From: Nitrospirota bacterium
GTDB lineage: Bacteria; Nitrospirota; Thermodesulfovibrionia; Thermodesulfovibrionales; Magnetobacteriaceae
Direction: 5' to 3'
NCBI GenBank assembly: GCA_015233045.1
Contig: JADFYL010000007.1
Coordinates: 1-38,894, forward strand
DNA: 38,894 nucleotides
Positions 151 through 11,488 of the stretch are shown here, piece after piece; positions within the stretch are counted from its first letter, which is position 1, and every line of letters begins with the position of its first letter. The notes under the pieces were generated by a model that was not told the DNA's origin, did not search any database, and worked only from the letters and a program-made list of their open reading frames with translations. A program made the position numbers and the translations under genes.

Positions 151-284
151 GACAGACAAAGAAAAGAACAGTCTGGAAATCATTGCAACTTCCCACATTT
201 GAGAACTTGTTTTATTCGTTAGAACAAAATTACCGTGATCCCCGACATCCCCGACATAATTATTAGCAAATATTCAAATCTCTA

Positions 285-293
285 TGCTATACT
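285..293 (+). promoter_or_regulatory. Candidate extended -10 promoter of the metal-transport cluster
   Basis: TGCTATACT is a TG-N extended -10 element (TATACT at 288-293). No good -35 hexamer sits at the usual distance, which is tolerated with an extended -10. A start near 300 would give a leader of about 170 nt ahead of cbiM that contains the whole hairpin region at 313-413. Confidence 0.35.
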
Positions 294-312
294 GATGGAG
301 GATTTATCGGGT

Positions 313-418
313 CGCGAAGGCCTGTGTGTAAGAGCCGCGAAGGCAGCAACAGCAACCAGCTTGTGCGTGGGCATGTGTCGGTTGGTTTGTGATTGCCTCC
401 GCGGCTTTTAGTTTTTAA
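313..418 (+). promoter_or_regulatory. Structured 5' leader with terminator-like hairpin ahead of cbiM
   Basis: GCCGCGAAGGCA (334-345) can pair with TGCCTCCGCGGC (394-405) in a 12-position stem with a single A.C mismatch, followed by a T-rich stretch (406-416), which resembles an intrinsic terminator. Nested inside, AACCA (354-358) can pair with TGGTT (383-387). A second copy of the left arm core, CGCGAAGGC, lies upstream at 313-321 and could compete for the same right arm. That is the usual logic of a riboswitch or attenuator. Its position before a Ni/Co importer suggests metal or cobalamin control, but I do not see the conserved cobalamin-riboswitch core and cannot confirm a NiCo aptamer. 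The aptamer class is therefore unassigned. Confidence 0.5.
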
Positions 419-471: not shown

Positions 472-1158
472 ATGCACATACCGGACGGCTACCTAAGCCC
501 TCAGACGTACATACCGATGTTTGCGGTTACGGGAACGTTTTGGGCTGTGGCGCTGCGGAAATTAAAGAGGAGGCTCTCGGTGAAGGAGATTCCTTATCTG
601 ACGATGGCCTCGGTGTTTTCATTTCTCATTATGATGTTTAACATCCCGATTCCAGGGGGAACGACGGGCCATGCCGTCGGGGCGGCAATCGTCGCAGTGC
701 TGCTTGGGCCGTGGACTGCCGTTATGGCGGTGTCGGTGGTATTAATCGTTCAGGCGCTTGTGTTTGGCGATGGGGGGATTACCGCAATCGGCGCGAATTG
801 TTTCAACATGGCGGTTGTTATGCCGTTTGTTTCCTATTGGGTATTTAAGCTAATAAGGGGAAAGTCCGCAAGTTTGGCGAGGTTGTCAGCCGCGGCCTTC
901 TTATCCGGTTATGTGGGTCTTCTGGCCTCTGCTATGGCGGCGGCGGTTGAGCTGGGAATTCAGCCTCTAATCGCCGCTGCCCCAGACGGCAAACCCCTCT
1001 ACGCGCCGTATCCACTCTCAATTACCATACCGGCGATGGCAATAGGCCACATGTTCCTGCTCTGCATTGTTGAGGGCATGGTGACTATGTTATTATTGCG
1101 ATATTTCTATAAACAGCAACCTGAACTTATCTACGCTTTTAAGGAGGCTGAGACTTAA
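472..1158 (+). CDS. cbiM: Ni/Co ECF transporter substrate-binding subunit CbiM/NikM
   Basis: Membrane S-component of an energy-coupling factor importer for Co2+ or Ni2+. The protein (228 aa) begins MHIPDGYLSP, the family hallmark, and its start is fixed because Met1 and His2 bind the metal. His67, in TTGHAVGA, is the third known metal ligand in NikM structures and is at exactly the expected position. About six to seven hydrophobic segments are visible. A GGGAG ribosome binding site lies at 461-465. It works with the PDGLE, CbiQ and CbiO proteins, but here those genes lie 6.9 kb downstream, separated by an RND system and a porin. Sequence alone does not distinguish nickel from cobalt; the symbol follows family convention. 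A structured leader precedes it and may control it. Confidence 0.93.
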   Translation: MHIPDGYLSPQTYIPMFAVTGTFWAVALRKLKRRLSVKEIPYLTMASVFSFLIMMFNIPIPGGTTGHAVGAAIVAVLLGPWTAVMAVSVVLIVQALVFGDGGITAIGANCFNMAVVMPFVSYWVFKLIRGKSASLARLSAAAFLSGYVGLLASAMAAAVELGIQPLIAAAPDGKPLYAPYPLSITIPAMAIGHMFLLCIVEGMVTMLLLRYFYKQQPELIYAFKEAET

Positions 1159-1186
1159 GATGCGGGGGGCGTACGGAGAGATGAAA

Positions 1187-2449
1187 ATGCCGACTGCGGG
1201 CGTTGCCCTCAGAATTATTCAGTGTGTCGTTGCAATTGTGCTTCTTTTGTTCGGGGCTTTTGTGCCTTCGGCCAATGGCGAAGTTACAGCCGAAATTTCA
1301 ATAGAGCAGGCCCTAAGCGATTTCTATCAGAACAACTATGATATCCTGATAAGTAAATACGAAATTGACAAGGCCCAGGCCGACTACATAGGGGCACGTC
1401 TGCTTCCCAACCCAAATCTGAGCTTCAATTATACATTTATCAGTCTTCAGAGGTTCCCGCAGACTACCGACAACACGCAAACTGTAACGCGCCTTGACCA
1501 GCTCATAGAACTTGGCGGTAAGAGGGGACTGAGGACGGGCGCCGCCCTTGAAGGCATTGAGGCAAGCAAACTCACACAAAAAGATACGGTAAGGACGCTG
1601 CTGATTGGCTTTTACACCGTGTTTTTTCAGATTAACACAGATATTCTTAGTGTGGATATGGCAAAGAGTGAATTAAAACGGTTTGACCGGACGATGGAGA
1701 TTGGCGAAAAAAGGTTTAACGCCGGTTTCCTGTCCCTTGTGGATTTTACAAAATTAAAACTTGCAAGGATAGACCTTGAGAATAATCTCACCACCGCTGA
1801 ATCTCAAATGAGAGACGACGCGGAGCAGTTTTCCTTTCTTTTGGGAAGCGCGGACCCTGTCAGGGCGGCCCTTCATATAAGCGAGGATTTCCCGCAATAC
1901 ACAGAAAACGACCTCGTTGAAAGCGCGAATAAGTACCGGTTTGACCTGCTCTCTATTGAAAGGCAGTTAAAGGCGTCGGAGTTTAATAAAGACCTTGCCC
2001 ACGCACAGGCTATCCCGGACATTACAGCGGGCGTTGAGCTTGACACCGTCGGGCAGGGCAACAGCCCCAGCATCGGCTTTGGCGTAAGCCTTCCAATTCC
2101 ATTGTTTAATAGAAATCAGGGGGAGATAGCCAGAAGACACGCTGAACATAGCCAGCTTGAGATTCAGAGAGACAAGCTGAAGCGTCAAATTGTCTCCGAC
2201 ATTCGCCACGCCGTCAACAGCTATGCAACAGCAATAACAGTCTTTGATTCATACAAGGGCAGAAAAGAGGCAATGCAAGAGCTGATGTCAAGGACAGAAA
2301 AGGCGTTCTCTCTTGGCGGAATCACAATGCTTGACCTCCTTGATACCGAAAAACAATACAGAGATTTTATGACAAAGTACAATCAGGCCCTCGTGCAGGC
2401 CAATCTGGCGAGGGAACTTCTAAAGGTTTATACGGGAGAGATAAAGTGA
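1187..2449 (+). CDS. TolC-like outer-membrane efflux channel (CzcC/CusC type)
   Basis: Outer-membrane factor of a tripartite RND system, forming the channel through outer membrane and periplasm. From ATG 1187 there is a signal peptide (hydrophobic core RIIQCVVAIVLLLFGAF, cleavage near SANG/EV), then long heptad-rich helices with the two internally repeated halves typical of the TolC fold. The total is 420 aa, normal for CzcC. An in-frame ATG at 1160 is only 1 bp after cbiM and has GGAGG 12 bases upstream. I prefer 1187 because GGAG at 1175-1178 is well spaced and the signal peptide then starts properly. Its 3' end overlaps the adaptor gene by 4 bp (GTGA), so the two are translationally coupled. 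Confidence 0.85.
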   Translation: MPTAGVALRIIQCVVAIVLLLFGAFVPSANGEVTAEISIEQALSDFYQNNYDILISKYEIDKAQADYIGARLLPNPNLSFNYTFISLQRFPQTTDNTQTVTRLDQLIELGGKRGLRTGAALEGIEASKLTQKDTVRTLLIGFYTVFFQINTDILSVDMAKSELKRFDRTMEIGEKRFNAGFLSLVDFTKLKLARIDLENNLTTAESQMRDDAEQFSFLLGSADPVRAALHISEDFPQYTENDLVESANKYRFDLLSIERQLKASEFNKDLAHAQAIPDITAGVELDTVGQGNSPSIGFGVSLPIPLFNRNQGEIARRHAEHSQLEIQRDKLKRQIVSDIRHAVNSYATAITVFDSYKGRKEAMQELMSRTEKAFSLGGITMLDLLDTEKQYRDFMTKYNQALVQANLARELLKVYTGEIK

Positions 2450-3489
2450 AAAAAGCCGCCATTTTTATCATAGTCCTTTCGCTTCTTTTGGGCTGCGAAA
2501 AGAAACAGCCCCCAAAGGAGGAGGCAAAAGATGCCCCACGCACCTGCAAGGTTGCCTTCCAGAAGGTTCAGACGTTCATAGAGGCTACTGGCAGCGTGGC
2601 CGCAGACCTTGAAGGAGGGGCTAAGATTCTCTCTCCCCTTGCCGGGTCAGTAGAAAAGATTTTCGTAAAAATAGGGGATTCTGTCAAAAAGGGCACACCC
2701 CTGGCCGTTGTCAGGAGCGCTGACGTAAGTGACGCCTACTCAAGCCACCTTTCTACGGAGGCACAGCTCAAGCAGGCAGAGCGCATTTACAATCTGAACA
2801 AGCAGCTCTTTGAAATCGGGGCGGTTACGAAAAACGACCTTCTGAACAGCGAGGCGGGCTATGAACAGGCACGGGCGATGTCCGAGGGACTGAGAAAGAA
2901 ACTTGACATATATGGCACGGCACAAAGTGGGGCGTCCGCCGATAAGCTGGTGCTTAGCGCCCCGATAGATGGCCGCGTTGCCGACATTGCGGCGCACATC
3001 GGCGACAGGTTTGACACCGCCACTCCTTTGATGGTCGTGGCAAACCCCAAAAAGCTGCTGGTTGTTGCAAATATCTATGACACCGACATTCCTAAGATTC
3101 AAAAGGACAGCGAGGTTACCTTTTCTATTGATATATTTCCCAATACTCAGTTTAAGGGCACAGTTTTTTATATGAGCGATGTAGAGGAACTGGAGTCAAG
3201 GACAATCAAGACCTACATCAGGGTTGCTACCGGTAGTACAGGACTTTTCAAACAGAATATGTTTTTGAAGCTCAAGATATTTGATGGGGAAAAGACCCTG
3301 CCAGTAGTCCCCAAGACGGCCATGATTTATAAAGAAAATAAGTTTTATGTGAACGCCAAAGACAACACTACATTCGCACTGAAAGAGGTAAAGCCCGTGA
3401 GAGACGCCTCCGAAAAGCTTATGGCCGTTGAGGGATTGAAAGAAGGGGACGAAATAGTGTGCAGCGCTATTGATATGGAGAAGACATGA
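2446..3489 (+). CDS. RND periplasmic adaptor (membrane fusion) lipoprotein, CusB/CzcB-like
   Basis: Adaptor linking the inner-membrane RND pump to the outer-membrane channel. The start is GTG at 2446 with GGGAG at 2434-2438. The first 17 residues form a lipoprotein signal with lipobox LLGC (Cys17), so it is membrane anchored by lipid. A lipoyl-like half (GGAKILSPLAGSVEKI and SAPIDGRVADI) flanks a helical hairpin around residues 90-150, followed by beta-barrel and membrane-proximal domains. This is the order seen in HlyD/CusB proteins. It is 347 aa, slightly short, with no Met-rich or His-rich metal-binding extension. It overlaps both neighbours by 4 bp. Confidence 0.87.
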   Translation: MKKAAIFIIVLSLLLGCEKKQPPKEEAKDAPRTCKVAFQKVQTFIEATGSVAADLEGGAKILSPLAGSVEKIFVKIGDSVKKGTPLAVVRSADVSDAYSSHLSTEAQLKQAERIYNLNKQLFEIGAVTKNDLLNSEAGYEQARAMSEGLRKKLDIYGTAQSGASADKLVLSAPIDGRVADIAAHIGDRFDTATPLMVVANPKKLLVVANIYDTDIPKIQKDSEVTFSIDIFPNTQFKGTVFYMSDVEELESRTIKTYIRVATGSTGLFKQNMFLKLKIFDGEKTLPVVPKTAMIYKENKFYVNAKDNTTFALKEVKPVRDASEKLMAVEGLKEGDEIVCSAIDMEKT

Positions 3490-6400
3490 GGAAATTGGTA
3501 ATCTTTGTCAGCACACACGCCCTCATGTTTATGCTGCTGACGGTTTCAGCTTTTCTGGTATCTGTCTTTTTCGTAAAAGACCTCAACGTGGAGGCATTTC
3601 CTGACCCGGCACCGGCTATCGTAGAGCTGGTGTCCCTCTTTGAAGGCAGGTCGGCGGAGGAGGTGGAGCGTCAGATAACCGTCCCCATAGAGGTCGCCCT
3701 TGCTGGAATGGAGGGATTGAAGAGGATTAACTCCATATCGCTCTATGGGCTTTCCGACGTCAAGTGTAAGTTTTCTTACGCGACAAACTACAAGGAGGCC
3801 AAGCAGGAGGTCATAAACAGGCTTGCCAATGTGACACTCCCCGACAATATTCAGCCCTCCATTATCCCTAATCCCATAGGCGAGGTAATGAGATACACAG
3901 TGACAGGCTCAGAAAATCTCATTGAACTGAGGACAATTGAGGACTGGACAGTGGAGAGACACCTGAAAACCGCCGACGGCGTTGAAGATGTCTCAGGCAG
4001 GGGTGGATTTATAAAGGCATATACTGTTGTGGTCAATCCTGACAATCTGGTTAAGTATGGAATAACCCTCGCTCAGGTCACAGACGCCCTCTCAAAGACG
4101 AATCTGAATGTCGGTGGAAGGGTCGTCGAAATGGGCGACCAGTACTATATGGTCAGAGGGTTGGGCCTTATAAAAAGCCTCGCGGATATTGAAAACGCTC
4201 TGGTAGTTTTAAAAAATGGAAAACCAATCCTCATAAAGAATGTCGCACAGGTAAGCATTGGAAATTCCCCAAGAACGGGAATCAGCGCCCTGAACAACAA
4301 TAATGACGTAGTTACCGGCACAGTGGTTCTAAGAAAAGGCGCCAAGAGCATTCCTTCAATAAAATCGGTTCACAAAAAGATTGATGAGCTAAACAACAGG
4401 ATTCTCCCAAAGGGAATAAAAGTGGTTCCCTATTACGAAAGGTGGGACCTTATCATTACCGTTGTGAAAAAAGTGGTGGAGACGGCGATGTCAGGGGTAG
4501 GGCTGGTTGCTATTGCGCTCTTTCTCTTTATGGGAAATGTCAGGGCTGCCCTTTTAACCGCCCTCGTAATCCCGATATCCCTGCTGATAACCCTCTCCGT
4601 CATGGCTATAAGGGGTGAGTCGGCCAATCTGCTTTCCATAGGGGCAATTGATTTTGGCATAATAGCGGACATCCCTCTGATACTCATCGAGGACTACTTC
4701 AGGCTTTCTAAAAAGTATGGCACAGGGATCACGTCAATTGAGAGGGCGGCGCATGAGATAGGAAGGCCTATGTTCTTTTCGATAGTTATTATACTTCTGG
4801 CCTTTGTTCCGATATTTATGATGCAGGGCGCTGAGGCGCAGATATTCTCCCCTATGGCAAAGACCTATCTCTACGCGATCCTATTTACCGTGCTGCTTAC
4901 ATTTACATATCTTGTCGCCTCGAAAACCCTCTTCCTCAAAGGCGTTGAGGACAAGGAGTTCGGTTTTGTCAAATATCTCAGGGACATGTATATTCGGGTT
5001 GTGAACATACTGTTACCAAATACAAGGAAGACCATCGCCGTGGTTCTTATTATTGTTATAGCTGGTTTATTTGTGGGGGTAAAGGTTATTGGGAGCCAGT
5101 TTCTGCCAAAGATGGATGAAGGGAATATCTATGTAAGAATAAGCTTTCCATATTCCATTTCACTGAACAAGACATATGAAAATGCCATTAAGGCAAAGGA
5201 GCTTATGCGCAGTCTCCCTGAGGCAGAGACAGTTGAGGCACAGGTGGGAAGGCCTGAGGACGGCACAGACCCAACCGGCCCTTTCAACTCGGAATATACG
5301 GTGCTTTTGAAACCCTACGATAAATGGCCAAAAGGGCAGACAAAAGAGAAGCTTGAGGCCGTGGTGCGGGAAAAACTCTTAAAACTCTTCCCCAACGCGG
5401 ACATCAACATTTCCCAGTACATTGAGGACAACCTTGAGGAGGTCATGTCAGGGGTAAAAGGCGAAAACTCTGTAAAAATATTCGGCGACGACCTCGCCCA
5501 GCTCGACGCGGCGGCTAAGGGCGTCAAAGAGGGCCTCGAAAAAATAGATGGCATAGAGGACGAGGGGATAATGCGGGAGTTGGGGCAACCGAATCTGCTT
5601 ATTGAGGTAATCAGGGAGAATGTCTCAGCCCTTGGGCTGACTGTCCAGGATGTGCTTGATACCGTCTCGGCGGCCTTGGGAGGCAAAGAGATAGGCAAGG
5701 TAATTGAAGGGGCGAAGAGTTTCTCTCTCATGGTAAGTTTCCCCCCTGACTATAAAAAATCCTTTGGAAAAATCGAAAACATCCCCATAGTGCTTCCTAA
5801 CGGCGGGATTGTCCCCCTGTCGCGCATCGCCAACATCCACTACGACACGGGCGCGTCATTCATATACAGAGAGGGGTTCAGGCGGTATATCCCCGTAAAG
5901 TTTACGGTTACGTCGCATGACCTCGGTGGAACGGTAAAACTGGCACAACTGGAGACATCGAAACTAAAACTCCCCGAAGGATACTACATGGAGTGGAGCG
6001 GCATGTTCAATGAGATGAAGGAATCCTTCAAGCGCTTCTACGTCTCAGTGCCAATATCGCTCTTCCTGATACTTGCCACGCTCTATATACTGTACCGCTC
6101 GGTGAGAAATGTGCTTATTACGATGGCAGCCCCTGTGTTTGCGGTATTTGCGGGGTTGATGAGCCTTCTTGTTACCGGAGAGTCGCTTAGTGTGTCTTCA
6201 ATGGTCGGGTTTATCTCCATAATAGGGGTCTCGGTGCTCAACGCGTCCATTATTATCAGCCATTTCATCAGGCTGACGATGGGGGGGATGGCCAGAGAAA
6301 TCGCGATAATTGAGACGGTGAAGGATAAATTCAGGCCGGTGCTTATGGGTGGCTTTGTCGCCTCGCTGGGACTTCTGCCGGCGTCTATGGCCCACGGCAT

Positions 6401-6515
6401 TGGAAGTCAGGTACAAAGGCCGCTGGCCGTTGTGGTAGTCGGTGGGATGCTGCTTGGGACGGCGATGACTCTGCTTCTGATCCCGCTGCTGCTGCAATCG
6501 GTTGAGACGGAGTAA
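3486..6515 (+). CDS. Heavy-metal-type RND inner-membrane pump (CusA/CzcA family)
   Basis: Proton-driven inner-membrane pump of 1009 aa with the RND layout: TM1 at residues 7-30, a large periplasmic loop, a TM block near 328-480, a second periplasmic loop and a C-terminal TM block. PDPAP...EEVERQITVPIE near residues 39-70 matches the CusA/CzcA N-terminal signature. The charged TM4 residues are kept as DFG (389-391), Asp395 and Glu402. Around them the usual divalent-metal motif (DFGxxxDGAxxxxEN) reads DFGIIADIPLILIED, so the familiar DGA and EN are changed. The substrate therefore cannot be assigned from family motifs. Its ATG overlaps the adaptor stop by 4 bp (ATGA). Confidence 0.87.
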   Translation: MRKLVIFVSTHALMFMLLTVSAFLVSVFFVKDLNVEAFPDPAPAIVELVSLFEGRSAEEVERQITVPIEVALAGMEGLKRINSISLYGLSDVKCKFSYATNYKEAKQEVINRLANVTLPDNIQPSIIPNPIGEVMRYTVTGSENLIELRTIEDWTVERHLKTADGVEDVSGRGGFIKAYTVVVNPDNLVKYGITLAQVTDALSKTNLNVGGRVVEMGDQYYMVRGLGLIKSLADIENALVVLKNGKPILIKNVAQVSIGNSPRTGISALNNNNDVVTGTVVLRKGAKSIPSIKSVHKKIDELNNRILPKGIKVVPYYERWDLIITVVKKVVETAMSGVGLVAIALFLFMGNVRAALLTALVIPISLLITLSVMAIRGESANLLSIGAIDFGIIADIPLILIEDYFRLSKKYGTGITSIERAAHEIGRPMFFSIVIILLAFVPIFMMQGAEAQIFSPMAKTYLYAILFTVLLTFTYLVASKTLFLKGVEDKEFGFVKYLRDMYIRVVNILLPNTRKTIAVVLIIVIAGLFVGVKVIGSQFLPKMDEGNIYVRISFPYSISLNKTYENAIKAKELMRSLPEAETVEAQVGRPEDGTDPTGPFNSEYTVLLKPYDKWPKGQTKEKLEAVVREKLLKLFPNADINISQYIEDNLEEVMSGVKGENSVKIFGDDLAQLDAAAKGVKEGLEKIDGIEDEGIMRELGQPNLLIEVIRENVSALGLTVQDVLDTVSAALGGKEIGKVIEGAKSFSLMVSFPPDYKKSFGKIENIPIVLPNGGIVPLSRIANIHYDTGASFIYREGFRRYIPVKFTVTSHDLGGTVKLAQLETSKLKLPEGYYMEWSGMFNEMKESFKRFYVSVPISLFLILATLYILYRSVRNVLITMAAPVFAVFAGLMSLLVTGESLSVSSMVGFISIIGVSVLNASIIISHFIRLTMGGMAREIAIIETVKDKFRPVLMGGFVASLGLLPASMAHGIGSQVQRPLAVVVVGGMLLGTAMTLLLIPLLLQSVETE

Positions 6516-6525
6516 GGGGCTTATA

Positions 6526-6597
6526 GTCGCAATATCACAGGGGGCGGTGCCTACGGTATTGCCGTGATTATAAAATATTTTGCCGCAAAACAGGAGG
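6526..6597 (+). promoter_or_regulatory. Hairpin and strong RBS between RND pump and porin genes
   Basis: This is the only sizeable gap (86 bp) in the first half of the cluster. ATCAC (near 6535) can pair with GTGAT (near 6564) around a GC-rich interior, giving a hairpin without a clean T tract. An AT-rich TATAAAAT-like stretch follows, then AGGAGGT just before the porin ATG. It may be a weak internal promoter or an mRNA processing/stability element that sets porin level apart from the pump. This is inference from the sequence only. Confidence 0.3.
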
Positions 6598-6601
6598 TAA
6601 C

Positions 6602-8014
6602 ATGTTCAACGACAGACTTAGGCCGTGGTTGTATTGTGTGGTTGCATTGGCGGCGCTAATGCTTCTTGCGCTGTCACAATCTGTCAACGCTGATAGTAAT
6701 GGGCAGCCGACTCAGGCCAGTACTGACACAACGACGACATGGCAAGACCAATTTCCAGAGTCGTTTCCAAAACTGCTGGGATTGCAGTTTAATGGTATAT
6801 ATCAAAACGTGCCGGGGTTTCGCAGCCCCTACACAGGGCAAAACAGCTTTAATACCGACGGGGTTTTCGGACATACCCTCACTCATGTTTATGGAATATA
6901 TCTCGGCGCTCAACTAGCTCCAACCCTGCAGTTCTATTTCGACTACGAGATGGCTAAGGGTGACGGGGTCAGCGGGGGGCATGGCCTTGGCGGATATACT
7001 AATGGGGATGTCATAAGAACCGGCTCTGGAAACATTGGAAGTGGCCCTTATGTAGCGCGGGCATATTTTCGCCATATAGTTCCCTTGGGCGATGAGACCG
7101 AAAAGGTGGAGCGCGCGCCTGACCAGCTCCCCGGCAATGAGTACGTCAAACGCGTAGAGATAAAGGCGGGTAAGATGTCGCCAGGCGATGACTTCGATTT
7201 GAACCGCTACGCAAACAACACACGCACCCAGTTTCTTAACTACGCGTTTATTTATAATCCAGCCTGGGATGAGGCAACTGATACGCGCGGCTACAGCTAT
7301 GGGGTAGTTGCCGCCCTTGTTCAGCCGAAATGGAGACTGGCCCTGGGCGCCTATATGATGCCGACCTACGCAAACGGCGGCAGAATGGACACACAGGTGT
7401 TTCAGGCGCAGGGAAGCTATCTGGAACTTACCTTTAAACCCAACGATTACGGTACGGTGGTACGAGTGCTGACCTATTTGAACAGGGCGCGCATGGGCAA
7501 TTATAATGAGGCAATGGAGATAGGGCTTGATAGCGGCTCAACTCCCGATGTTGGAGCCGATGAGAAGCGCGGGCGAACTAAATATGGCTTTGGTGTGAAC
7601 TTCGAGCAGCCGCTGGCCGATGATGGCGAGACCGGCATATTTGGCCGCATAGGTTGGAACGACGGCCATAACGAGACTTTTAGTTATACCGAAGTTGACC
7701 AGCACCTGAGCCTTGGCGCGCAATTAAGCGGCACGCACTGGGGCAGAGCCGAGGACCGTGTGGGGCTGGCCTATGCGATACAAGGCATATCAAAAGAGCA
7801 TAGGGATTATCTGGCCGCCGGGGGCTATGGGATGTTAATAGGCGACGGCGCGTTAAACTATGGCCCGGAGCAGATTCTCGAACTCTATTACAGGGTTCAA
7901 ATCGGCAAATTCGTGCAGATAACGCCTGATTATCAGCTTGTCGCAAATCCTGGATATAACCGTGACCGCGGCCCGGCAAGCGTTATCTCCATGAGGCTGC
8001 GCGTTTCATATTGA
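6602..8014 (+). CDS. OprB-family carbohydrate-selective-type porin
   Basis: Outer-membrane beta-barrel protein (470 aa). The signal peptide spans residues 1-30 (LYCVVALAALMLLALSQSVNA, then DSNG). The mature chain is rich in alternating aromatic/polar strands and ends in ...MRLRVSY with a C-terminal aromatic residue, as needed for barrel assembly. The C-terminal third (QLSGTHWGRAEDRVGLAYAI, then LELYYRVQIGKFVQITPDYQ and NPGYNRDRGP) is characteristic of OprB. OprB porins classically pass sugars, but here the gene sits inside a metal-transport cluster, so diffusion of Ni/Co chelates is a reasonable alternative. A near-consensus AGGAGGT precedes the ATG. Confidence 0.85.
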   Translation: MFNDRLRPWLYCVVALAALMLLALSQSVNADSNGQPTQASTDTTTTWQDQFPESFPKLLGLQFNGIYQNVPGFRSPYTGQNSFNTDGVFGHTLTHVYGIYLGAQLAPTLQFYFDYEMAKGDGVSGGHGLGGYTNGDVIRTGSGNIGSGPYVARAYFRHIVPLGDETEKVERAPDQLPGNEYVKRVEIKAGKMSPGDDFDLNRYANNTRTQFLNYAFIYNPAWDEATDTRGYSYGVVAALVQPKWRLALGAYMMPTYANGGRMDTQVFQAQGSYLELTFKPNDYGTVVRVLTYLNRARMGNYNEAMEIGLDSGSTPDVGADEKRGRTKYGFGVNFEQPLADDGETGIFGRIGWNDGHNETFSYTEVDQHLSLGAQLSGTHWGRAEDRVGLAYAIQGISKEHRDYLAAGGYGMLIGDGALNYGPEQILELYYRVQIGKFVQITPDYQLVANPGYNRDRGPASVISMRLRVSY

Positions 8015-8031
8015 CAGGGGGGTGATGTGTG

Positions 8032-8367
8032 ATGCGGAAAAAACTGTGGATAGGGCTAATGGTTATGGCGCTGATGGTGCCGCTTGGGATTATCGTGCCG
8101 GAGAGATTTGGCGCTGCGGGCGCGTGGGGGGAGTGGAGCGCTGAGACGCTCAACCAAATGCTCGGCTATCTCCCTGAGGGGTTGCGGCACTATACTGACC
8201 TATGGAAGGCCCCTATAGGCGATTACTCGGTCGTCCCATACAGCACAAACTTGTTCGTCAAGTCTCTTTCCTACATTGCGTCAGGACTGATTGGGGCTGC
8301 CCTTGCCGGTCTTGGCATCTTTATAATATCCAGGTCCGCGGCCCGGCCTGAAAAAAATGAAAAATAA
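8032..8367 (+). CDS. PDGLE-domain (CbiN/NikN-like) ECF accessory membrane subunit
   Basis: Small two-TM protein (111 aa) with hydrophobic segments at residues 5-22 and about 79-100 and an extracytoplasmic loop holding PEGLRHYTDLWKAPIGDYSV. This matches the PDGLE domain found beside or fused to CbiM/NikM. Such subunits help CbiM load metal (established for NikN/CbiN). I chose ATG 8032, 8 bases after a GGGGGGT stretch; a GTG one codon earlier (8029) is possible. Its 3' end overlaps cbiQ by 11 bp. Confidence 0.8.
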   Translation: MRKKLWIGLMVMALMVPLGIIVPERFGAAGAWGEWSAETLNQMLGYLPEGLRHYTDLWKAPIGDYSVVPYSTNLFVKSLSYIASGLIGAALAGLGIFIISRSAARPEKNEK

Positions 8368-9268
8368 GATACCATCTTTTTTATTGCATACCCGGCCGTA
8401 CCCAAAGGCCAGAGGCGGCGGCGTTAAGGGTTCGTTCATAGACAAGGGAATCGGGCATATCTCTGAATTTTATGAGACGGTTTTTTTGCAGTGGGAATTG
8501 TCGCAAAAGGACGGCCTGTTTCAGAGGTTAAACGCGCGGACAAAGGTGCTGTTTCTGGTGTTGTATCTTTTTGTCATCAGTGTGAAAAAAGATGTGCCCT
8601 CCGAGGTGTTGACAGCGGTGTTTATTTTGCCATTTGTTATCATGTCGAGGGTTGGGATTTTGGCGTTTTATCGGAGGGTTATTACAGCAGGGTTTTTCTT
8701 TGGGTTTATCGCCGGAGTTCCCGCCGTGTTAAATATTATCACGCCGGGGGAGCCGGTTTATACAATTTTGGAACTGCGGCGGCAGTACGATTTTTGGATA
8801 TACCATGTGCCACAGACTATCACTGTGACTCGTGAGGGAACGCTGGCGGCGCTAATGCTCACGGCGAGGGTGGCTAATTCGGTTTCCATAACGCTTCTGG
8901 TCGTCTGTACGACGCCGTTTTCAGATGTGGTGAAGGCGTTAAAGGTCTTCAGGGTGCCCGAATATTTCCTGATGATACTGACCTTGTCACACAAGTACGC
9001 GTTCATATTTTTAAAGATGCTCTGCGATATGCACACAGCAAAAAAGGCGCGCCTCATAGGCCCTGCGGACGCCACTGGCTGGATAGCCGGAAGGGCTGCC
9101 TATATATTCAAAAAGACGCAGCTCCGGTGTGAGGATGTGTATAAGGCGATGGCTGGGCGCGGATTCACCGGAGAGGTAAAATTAGCCAAATTGGGGCACA
9201 CAAAAACTGTGGACATCATTGCAGGGGCTATGTTTTTAACGCTGTGGATGTTATTATTAATCCTGTAG
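8357..9268 (+). CDS. cbiQ: Ni/Co ECF transporter T-component CbiQ
   Basis: Transmembrane scaffold coupling the CbiO ATPase to CbiM. The protein (303 aa) has five or six hydrophobic segments. The two cytoplasmic coupling-helix signatures are recognisable: KKARLIGP at 229-236 and AGRGF at 266-270 (the Ala/Gly-Arg-Gly motif that docks on the ATPase). It is longer than the usual 220-270 aa because of a roughly 50-residue N-terminal extension before the first membrane segment. The ATG at 8357 overlaps the PDGLE gene by 11 bp; a later start would lose the charged N-terminus but not the core. Confidence 0.9.
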   Translation: MKNKIPSFLLHTRPYPKARGGGVKGSFIDKGIGHISEFYETVFLQWELSQKDGLFQRLNARTKVLFLVLYLFVISVKKDVPSEVLTAVFILPFVIMSRVGILAFYRRVITAGFFFGFIAGVPAVLNIITPGEPVYTILELRRQYDFWIYHVPQTITVTREGTLAALMLTARVANSVSITLLVVCTTPFSDVVKALKVFRVPEYFLMILTLSHKYAFIFLKMLCDMHTAKKARLIGPADATGWIAGRAAYIFKKTQLRCEDVYKAMAGRGFTGEVKLAKLGHTKTVDIIAGAMFLTLWMLLLIL

Positions 9269-9276
9269 GGGATTCG

Positions 9277-10086
9277 ATGGAGACGATACTTGCCCTGAAA
9301 GGGGCGACATATAAGTATTATGAAAAAATAACCGCCCTCAACGGCGTAAGCCTGTCAATTGGAAGGGGACAGCGAGTTGCGGTAATCGGTGCAAATGGGA
9401 GCGGGAAGTCGTCCCTGCTGCAAGTGCTTGCGGGGTTGATGTTTCCCCAAAGCGGCGAGGTATTTTTTCAGGGCGCGCCGTTTACTGAAAAATCATTTAA
9501 GGATGTGGAGTTTCTGAGGCATTTCAGGACAGCGGTCGGGTATGTCTTTCAGCACTCTGACGTGCAGTTGTTCTGCCCTACGGTGTATGATGAGCTGGTG
9601 TTCGGGCCGCTTCAGATGGGGATGGACGAGGGGGAGGCATCCGGGCGTGCTATGGAGATTATGGGAATGCTTGATATAGAGGCCCTGCGGGACAGGCCGC
9701 CCTATATGCTCTCTGGCGGCGAGAAAAAGAAGGCGGCAATCGGTTCAGTACTCACCATGAACCCTGAGGTGATACTGCTTGATGAGCCGACAAGCGGGCT
9801 TGACCCCCGGACACAGGCCTTTCTGGTTGAACTGCTCTTTGCCATCAACGACTCGGGTAAGACCATCGTCGTATCCACGCATGACCTTGCCCTCGTTGAG
9901 GAGTTGCAGGGTGAGACGGTGGTGCTTTCTGAGGGGCACACGATTGAGCGGGCAGGTGCCGCGGACGATATCCTCTCTGACGAGGAGATGCTCCTGAGGG
10001 TAAACCTTATTCATGAACATTTCCACAGGCACAAAGGGCCGGGCGGCTCAATCACACACGTCCACCGCCACGCCCACGGGGATTGA
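9277..10086 (+). CDS. cbiO: Ni/Co ECF transporter ATPase CbiO with His-rich tail
   Basis: Cytoplasmic ATPase driving the importer (269 aa from ATG 9277). Walker A is GANGSGKS (38-45), the Q-loop is Gln92, the signature is LSGGE (145-149), Walker B is VILLDE (165-170) and the switch is His202. I chose ATG 9277 because AGGGGA (9267-9272) precedes it; a GTG at 9244 would overlap cbiQ and has no such site. The C-terminus carries HEHFHRH (246-252) and HVHRHAH (261-267), a clear metal-binding His tail that could buffer or sense imported Ni/Co. CbiO proteins often work as homodimers, so one gene suffices. Confidence 0.94.
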   Translation: METILALKGATYKYYEKITALNGVSLSIGRGQRVAVIGANGSGKSSLLQVLAGLMFPQSGEVFFQGAPFTEKSFKDVEFLRHFRTAVGYVFQHSDVQLFCPTVYDELVFGPLQMGMDEGEASGRAMEIMGMLDIEALRDRPPYMLSGGEKKKAAIGSVLTMNPEVILLDEPTSGLDPRTQAFLVELLFAINDSGKTIVVSTHDLALVEELQGETVVLSEGHTIERAGAADDILSDEEMLLRVNLIHEHFHRHKGPGGSITHVHRHAHGD

Positions 10087-10093
10087 TGGTACA

Positions 10094-11488
10094 ATGAATG
10101 ACAAGAATACGGAGGTCAGCAAGGGGGGGATTTCCCCTGAATGGGTTTTCTTATTAATAAGCGTAGTGTTTGGGTATATATTTGTATTTGTAACGCCGCC
10201 GTTTCAGGCCCCCGATGAGTATCATCATATGTTTCGTGCCTATCATGTGTCAATGGGCGGGTTAGTTTCGTCAAAGGCGGGCGGCGTCTCCGGGGCGCAG
10301 CTTCCCGTAAACCTTGGAAATACGGTGATAAACGTATCTACAAATCTTTCCCAGCATCCAAATAACAAGCAAAAACTGTCAGACCTCGGCAAGGTCATGC
10401 ACATCCCGCTTGAGCCGGAGAAAACCGTGTTTTACTTCTTCCCAAACACGGCACGATACGCCCCTGTCATGTACGCCCCGCAGGCGCTGGGAATATTCGT
10501 GGGAAGGCTATTGCACGTTGCCCCTATTTTCATAATGTACTTAGGGCGGATAACGAACCTGATTGTCTGGATAGCACTTATCTACATAGCGATAGTCGCA
10601 ACTCCGGTATATAAGTGGCTCTTTGTGCTGTTGGCTCTGACGCCGATGTCGCTGTTTCTGGGGGCGTCGCTGTCTGCCGATGCCTTTACCAACGCGGTTG
10701 CGTTTGTATTTGCCGCGTTGATATTTAAGGCTGCCTTTGGGGGCGGTGGAGAGGTGTCAACGAGGGAACTCGCGCTTATTTTTTTGGCGGCGGTGATGCT
10801 TTCCCTGTCGAAACAGGTCTACGTGCCGGTGCTGTTAATTTTTCTGATGATACCTGTTAGCAAGTTTGGCTCATTAAAAAGATATACGGCCATTGCGGCC
10901 TCATTTTTTGTTGTTAACGCCGCAGTGGCCTGTTCGTGGTTTTTCATGTCGGGGGATTTACTTGTCCCGCTCAGGGAAAAACTGGACATATCGCCGCAGA
11001 GGCAGTTATATTCCATAACGCGTCATCCACTGGACTTCGTCATTGCAATGAGAAACACGCTTTTTAAATATTGGTCTGATGTGCTGACAGACTTCATAGG
11101 GAAACTTGGCTGGCTTGATACGGAGCTTCCCGCGTATATTCACGTAACGTTTTGGGGGCTTCTGATTTTCACGGCCCTTTGCGAAAACAACAGCGACATC
11201 GTGGTAAAAATAAAAGACAAGGCTATAGCGGCGGCGGCATTTGTGAGTACGACCTTTCTTATAGTCCTCTCGCAGTATCTGACGTGGACGGAGGTTGATA
11301 AAAATATAATAGATGGCCTGACGGGAAGGTATTTTATACCCGTGGCTGCCGCGCTGTTCCTCTTATTTTACAACAATAAATTCCACATAAACACGAAGAG
11401 GCCGCTCTTTGGCATATTGATATTAAGCTATCTGGCAGTTGTAATGATTTCCACGTTGGCGGCCATGATAACGCGTTATTATTTGTGA
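10094..11488 (+). CDS. DUF2142 polytopic membrane protein
   Basis: Predicted inner-membrane protein (464 aa) with about ten hydrophobic segments and, after TM1, the motif PPFQAPDEYHHMFRAYHVS. This PDE...H/RAY signature in the first periplasmic loop matches the DUF2142 family, whose layout resembles GT-C glycosyltransferases. The biochemical function is not established. The ATG lies 7 bp after the cbiO stop; a longer reading frame from 10013 would overlap cbiO by 74 bp and is unlikely. It may only be a passenger of the metal operon, as nothing in it suggests metal binding. Confidence 0.72.
   Translation: MNDKNTEVSKGGISPEWVFLLISVVFGYIFVFVTPPFQAPDEYHHMFRAYHVSMGGLVSSKAGGVSGAQLPVNLGNTVINVSTNLSQHPNNKQKLSDLGKVMHIPLEPEKTVFYFFPNTARYAPVMYAPQALGIFVGRLLHVAPIFIMYLGRITNLIVWIALIYIAIVATPVYKWLFVLLALTPMSLFLGASLSADAFTNAVAFVFAALIFKAAFGGGGEVSTRELALIFLAAVMLSLSKQVYVPVLLIFLMIPVSKFGSLKRYTAIAASFFVVNAAVACSWFFMSGDLLVPLREKLDISPQRQLYSITRHPLDFVIAMRNTLFKYWSDVLTDFIGKLGWLDTELPAYIHVTFWGLLIFTALCENNSDIVVKIKDKAIAAAAFVSTTFLIVLSQYLTWTEVDKNIIDGLTGRYFIPVAAALFLLFYNNKFHINTKRPLFGILILSYLAVVMISTLAAMITRYYL

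Follow-up and report, generated by a model that had tools for sequence, protein, structure and literature searches.

NikMNQO and CbiMNQO importers of the energy-coupling factor (ECF) type have been described (PMC2667541), as have nikMNQO operons controlled by NikR (PMC545781). Heavy-metal efflux (HME) pumps of the resistance-nodulation-division (RND) type, such as CzcCBA and ZneCBA, are three-component systems found in metal-induced resistance operons. An OprB-family porin encoded before feoAB in Geobacter sulfurreducens, with a FUR box upstream, has been predicted to be a partner in iron uptake (PMC545781). The window analysed here is the whole of contig JADFYL010000007.1 (38,894 nt; G000:C75), which belongs to a metagenome-assembled genome of a Nitrospirota bacterium (G000; 74% complete). 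It contains an operon-like unit, preceded by a conserved leader hairpin, in which the genes of an ECF importer are broken up by genes for an RND efflux set and an OprB-family porin. No published account of this operon or of its leader was found in the open-access literature searched. The explanation we prefer, with moderate confidence, is that the porin and a putative divalent-metal RND set were inserted between the genes for the two substrate-binding subunits, CbiM and PDGLE, of a NikMNQO-type nickel-uptake operon, and that the pump clears the periplasm.

An importer operon broken up by efflux and porin genes

All eight genes were found on the + strand, and Pfam and NCBIfam identities confirmed the order given in an earlier reading of the sequence (hereafter the original prediction): cbiM, tolC-like, adaptor, HME-RND, oprB, PDGLE, cbiQ and cbiO (Table 1). 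The M, Q and O components passed curated cut-offs (Pfam CbiM, CbiQ and ABC_tran; CbiQ also TIGR02454). The N component scored slightly below the Pfam cut-off for PDGLE, and its identity was supported by synteny in congeners and by a C-terminal match to NF005598, the NCBIfam model of the fused CbiM-PDGLE form. With M, N-like, Q and O components all present, the importer fits the NikMNQO type, although, unlike the described systems, its genes are interrupted by four foreign ones (tolC, cusB, cusA and oprB; PMC2667541). CbiM is 47% identical to PDB 4m58 and retains Met1, His2 and His67. We take 4m58 to be NikM2, the nickel S component of Thermoanaerobacter tengcongensis, and these three residues to be nickel ligands. 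The family, the residues and, indirectly, the NikR exclusion described below point to nickel as the probable substrate of the importer.

The gaps between the genes had been described as short or negative. This held for the 4-bp overlaps at the tolC/adaptor and adaptor/RND junctions and for the 11-bp PDGLE/cbiQ overlap, but not for the RND/oprB junction, where a gap of 86 bp had gone unmentioned. The cbiM/tolC and oprB/PDGLE gaps measure 1 and 14 bp, and cbiQ and cbiO lie close together. Folding of the 86-bp gap showed no terminator-like structure, and promoter-like sites inside the operon showed no clear excess (21 against 16 expected). The proposal of one operon-like unit stands, and the genes are presumably carried on a single transcript. 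Mis-assembly is unlikely: the operon is flanked on both sides by DNA syntenic with that of congeners, its junctions coincide with gene borders, and a comparable split is present in two congener assemblies. The DUF2142 gene located 3' of cbiO is present at this position in every congener with a complete operon, and is duplicated in G004 (L034).

Table 1. Positions of the operon genes and neighbouring features in the window
Feature	Position	Strand	Evidence
Conserved promoter-like block (TTAGCA, 19 nt, extended -10 TGCTATACT); inferred promoter	262..293	+	Congener conservation
Small upstream hairpin, second copy of CGCGAAGGC motif, genus-specific	308..324	+	Alignment of 5 congeners; fold
Leader hairpin with terminator-like T-run	332..415	+	Model R1 E 1.1e-11 (this copy being one of the 18 members used to build R1); fold z -4.0; pair covariation
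cbiM/nikM, ECF S component (Met1, His2, His67)	472..1158	+	Pfam CbiM E 8e-63; 47% identity to PDB 4m58
tolC-like outer-membrane efflux channel	1160..2449	+	Pfam OEP E 1e-49
cusB/czcB-type periplasmic adaptor, lipoprotein-like signal	2446..3489	+	Pfam HlyD_D23 E 3e-27; TIGR01730
HME-type RND pump, divergent clade (D389, D395, E402)	3486..6515	+	ACR_tran E 4e-206; TIGR00914 731 bits
OprB-family outer-membrane porin	6602..8014	+	Pfam OprB (PF04966) E 5e-41, above cut-off
PDGLE (NikN-like) subunit	8029..8367	+	PF13190 E 1e-5, just under gathering score; NF005598 2e-12; congener synteny
cbiQ, ECF T component	8357..9268	+	Pfam CbiQ E 3e-25; TIGR02454 above cut-off
cbiO, ECF ATPase	9244..10086 (likely start 9277 by congeners)	+	Pfam ABC_tran E 3e-30; TIGR01166 below cut-off
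DUF2142 membrane protein	10013..11488 (likely start 10094)	+	PF09913 E 8e-69; genus synteny

The cbiM-PDGLE joint is a cargo slot within the genus

Thirty CbiM loci, drawn from 60 relatives, were fetched. Outside the genus, PDGLE was located directly 3' of cbiM wherever an N-type subunit was detectable, and cbiQ and cbiO came next in nearly all cases where the fetched DNA extended far enough. The view that ECF genes are normally contiguous was thus upheld in all the other families examined, so the split of the importer genes is derived.

Within the genus, the joint has been used repeatedly as a cargo slot. It is empty in G004 and G006, while in G001 it holds a gene for a 311-aa secreted protein resembling a TorF/Gcw_chp-type outer-membrane barrel, an assignment that is weak (PF09694 E 0.019 for the protein itself; TIGR02001 E 1e-4 for a homologue adjoining an ammonium transporter). 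The joint of G005 contains genes for Fur, an adaptor, an HME-RND pump and a NodT-type channel; G002 carries this set too, with a CDF exporter gene after it, beyond which the contig ends. The slot RND of G005 and G002 is about 34% identical to the window RND and, at that strictness, was present in those two of the 60 genomes only. The window RND has an 88% identical relative in a stand-alone set of G002, which suggests that the RND set probably moved into the window operon. A tree of the importer separated G000 and G001 from G004, G005 and G006, its finer forks being modestly supported, and a GlmS tree firmly grouped G000, G001 and G003 and paired G005 with G006. The joint has thus received HME-RND sets at least twice, and the sets are unrelated.

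The main rival to the explanation we prefer is that the joint 3' of cbiM simply tolerates insertions, the pump and the porin riding the promoter of a well-expressed operon without any functional connection to nickel uptake. This would agree with a slot whose contents differ between close species and which is empty in two, and with the stand-alone relatives of the window RND. However, all the inserts seen are envelope transporters or a likely regulator (two unrelated HME-RND sets, OprB, the putative barrel, CDF and Fur), and OprB occurs with an RND of the same clade beside an NRAMP importer in another phylum (Oryzomonas; see below). We give chance cargo a lower but still appreciable probability.

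A leader hairpin and its exclusion of NikR

Upstream of cbiM, conservation among congeners is limited to the promoter-like block and the T-run hairpin. The leader core consists of AAGCCACGAAGGCTT, a variable inner hairpin and then AAGCCTTYGTGGCTTTTTT. Rfam covariance-model searches, including permissive ones on the leader, returned no family match. The leader is structured, its helix being kept by compensatory change: 93.9% of the cells were paired, and 13 cells showed changes on both sides (2.8 in shuffled data). The 5' arm varied less than the 3' arm, with 12 departures against 57, an asymmetry that is biased because the 5' arm served as the seed of the search. With a covariance model built from 18 members, the leader was detected at E 1e-7 in 63 of the 396 genomes of the phylum (56 in the order, seven elsewhere in the class and none outside it). 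Sequence was obtained for 45 leader loci, the gene-calling reference set being compiled from loci seen earlier. In 39 of them the leader preceded NikK, a Ni/Co ECF gene or an OprB gene belonging to an operon of this kind. Another four preceded TonB, a DUF4198 protein, an outer-membrane barrel or a methyltransferase-ExbB operon; the last two were uninformative. Among the 27 loci outside the model-building set, 21 preceded ECF, NikK or OprB genes.

The leader and NikR were not found together. Of the 60 relatives, 29 carried the leader at E 2e-5 or better, NikR was present in 16, and no genome had both (Fisher p 2e-6, uncorrected for ancestry). The same was true of the 396 phylum genomes, where none of the 63 with the leader was among the 190 with NikR (41 of these in the class). 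A looser cut-off (1e-3) gave weak leader matches (E 1e-3 to 3e-5) in four NikR genomes, which the stricter cut-off excluded; L152, the only one of these four loci that was fetched, has no uptake gene. The window genome, the assembly of which is only 74% complete, yielded no NikR gene. In all 16 NikR genomes of the 60-relative set, nikR lies 0.3-4.3 kb from cbiM/nikM. The arrangement is therefore like that of NikR-controlled nikMNQO (PMC545781) in its target operons, nikR being near nikM in relatives, and unlike it in that the leader-bearing genomes of the class are without NikR. Since both states are present within single families (f1, f2, f13, f14 and f15) and even genera (g78 and g85), replacement between NikR and the leader has happened several times.

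We read the leader as a nickel-control element, which could act as a sensor made of RNA, as an attenuator bound by a protein or as an operator at the DNA level. Because it fronts uptake operons across the class and never occurs with NikR, the window operon most likely belongs to a regulon for nickel uptake whose nickel switch is unusual. The original prediction took it as the norm that import and efflux of a metal are oppositely regulated; here, the operon lies behind a leader common to other nickel-uptake operons, and co-expression within the uptake regulon is likely. With one predicted promoter and this regulon-marking leader in front of the operon, the importer, porin and pump should be co-produced whenever the cell needs nickel. 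In G. sulfurreducens, a different CzcABC set is induced by Co stress and lies within a Fur-regulated cluster (PMC7726332), which is a precedent for placing a pump under a regulator of the uptake type. More tentatively, and with somewhat less than even confidence, we propose that the leader at 332-415 is an undescribed nickel-responsive element (an RNA attenuator or an operator for an unidentified regulator) that replaces NikR throughout the class and drives importer, porin and pump together, so that efflux would serve acquisition, not resistance.

Several other observations were made on leader loci. The window genome has a second, weaker leader (L161:2217-2268; G000:C26:6216) before a TonB-dependent receptor gene (two open reading frames) and a TonB-like gene. 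A PF13557 barrel (Phenol_MetA_deg) is often first in the nickel ECF operons preceded by the leader (L155, L128, L136, L177 and L183). Some leader operons (L154, L159 and L157) encode a methyltransferase together with a TonB-dependent receptor and a periplasmic binding protein, possibly a nickel-chelate uptake route. In L128, L172 and L174, a downstream stretch such as GCCGCGGGAAAGG, which includes the likely ribosome site, can pair with the leader 3' arm. An alternative switch helix is possible in this one family; as a general mechanism such a helix was rejected, being strong in these three loci and absent in most.

Candidate roles of the porin and the pump

Relatives of the window OprB are rare, being present at E 1e-60 in five of the 396 phylum genomes. 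One lies 3' of a different cbiM operon (G015, L077), one is followed by an NRAMP importer gene and an MgtE_N/CBS gene (G005, L074), one has a CDF exporter on one side and the series NRAMP/MgtE/GDT1 on the other (G110, L114), and one adjoins CbiK and cobalamin genes (G010, L078). Other relatives have no such metal neighbour (e.g. L075 in G002, L076 in G005 and L079 in G010). In several genomes, from two families of the same order, nikKMLQO operons begin with the gene for a more distant OprB-like porin. As in the window, an OprB-family porin is part of a nickel ECF operon with the same leader, but there the porin comes first and the RND set is absent. In Oryzomonas (Geobacterales; L095:2852-13033), genes for NRAMP, MgtE_N/CBS, OprB, tolC, cusB and cusA occur with no ECF system, and the RND is 75% identical to that of the window and of the same clade. 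A PDB sequence search with the window OprB gave no match, and an AlphaFold2 model reached a pLDDT (predicted local distance difference test) score of 28 with an alignment of two sequences only. OprB-type porins thus recur beside Ni/Co or NRAMP importers, and a role of the window porin in metal uptake is well supported by gene context. The G. sulfurreducens OprB-feoAB arrangement is similar in that an OprB-family porin is predicted to import metal, although the metal there is iron rather than nickel and no RND is present (PMC545781).

The pump can be classed as HME-RND, as it scores above the TIGR00914 cut-off and its transmembrane helix 4 motif, DFGIIADIPLILIED, retains the two Asp and one Glu that form the three acidic residues of the proton relay. 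Its closest solved structure is ZneA. In these respects, and in its three components, the set resembles CzcCBA and ZneCBA; it is unlike them in its divergent motif and in that its genes lie within an importer operon, whereas theirs form metal-induced resistance operons. By motif the pump is neither HME1 nor HME2, the consensus of which is DFGX3DGAX3VEN (PMC3637150), since DFGIIADIPLILIED is without DGA and VEN. Motif and tree together showed that this variant marks a clade spread across Nitrospirota, Thermodesulfobacteriota, Aquificota and others. No characterised member of this clade was found, and the best listed RND match in a plasmid collection was a Cupriavidus CH34 record with no annotation for it.

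According to the explanation we prefer, the leader would most likely release transcription under nickel shortage, and OprB, importer and pump would then be produced together; this first part is reasonably supported. OprB would admit Ni2+ and other cations to the periplasm, from which CbiM, PDGLE, CbiQ and CbiO would take up nickel using ATP. The RND pump would rid the periplasm of divalent metals that are unwanted or in excess, so that the leaky pore could stay open; this clearing role is the more tentative part, to which we give less than even odds. Several points weigh against this explanation. The clade of the pump consists mostly of stand-alone tolC-cusB-cusA sets in other phyla; in relatives, OprB and this RND are each found without the other; and a further promoter could lie within the 86-bp gap 5' of oprB. 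Finally, a search for the same gene order, suggested with the original prediction, found the exact set in a single genome among those searched, the 74% complete window genome, although a comparable split by a non-orthologous HME-RND set was seen in two congeners.

Alternatively, the pump might export nickel itself, importer and exporter confining periplasmic and cytoplasmic nickel to a narrow range. The two share an operon, and the pump is of HME type and carries the acidic trio typical of divalent-metal pumps (PMC3637150). Its motif, however, deviates from the HME1/HME2 consensus, a close characterised relative was not found, and nickel export by RND pumps has been treated as opposed to a strong need for the metal in the periplasm (PMC11247825), all of which makes this set-point arrangement improbable. 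The proposals that porin and pump form one trans-envelope conduit, or that an exported nickel chelator re-enters through the porin, are very improbable, as nothing beyond gene adjacency was found for them, Pfam revealed no metallophore biosynthesis gene in the operon, the RND set has a TolC-like channel of its own, and the pump scores as HME rather than as drug-efflux type.

Each protein of the operon is of a known kind; the combination is new, and the leader may be a new kind of element. The locus runs counter to the rule of opposite responses for import and efflux of a metal, and offers a testable idea of how selectivity is kept at a leaky outer-membrane pore in Gram-negative cells. The candidate nickel-control element standing in for NikR is directly testable in cultured relatives.

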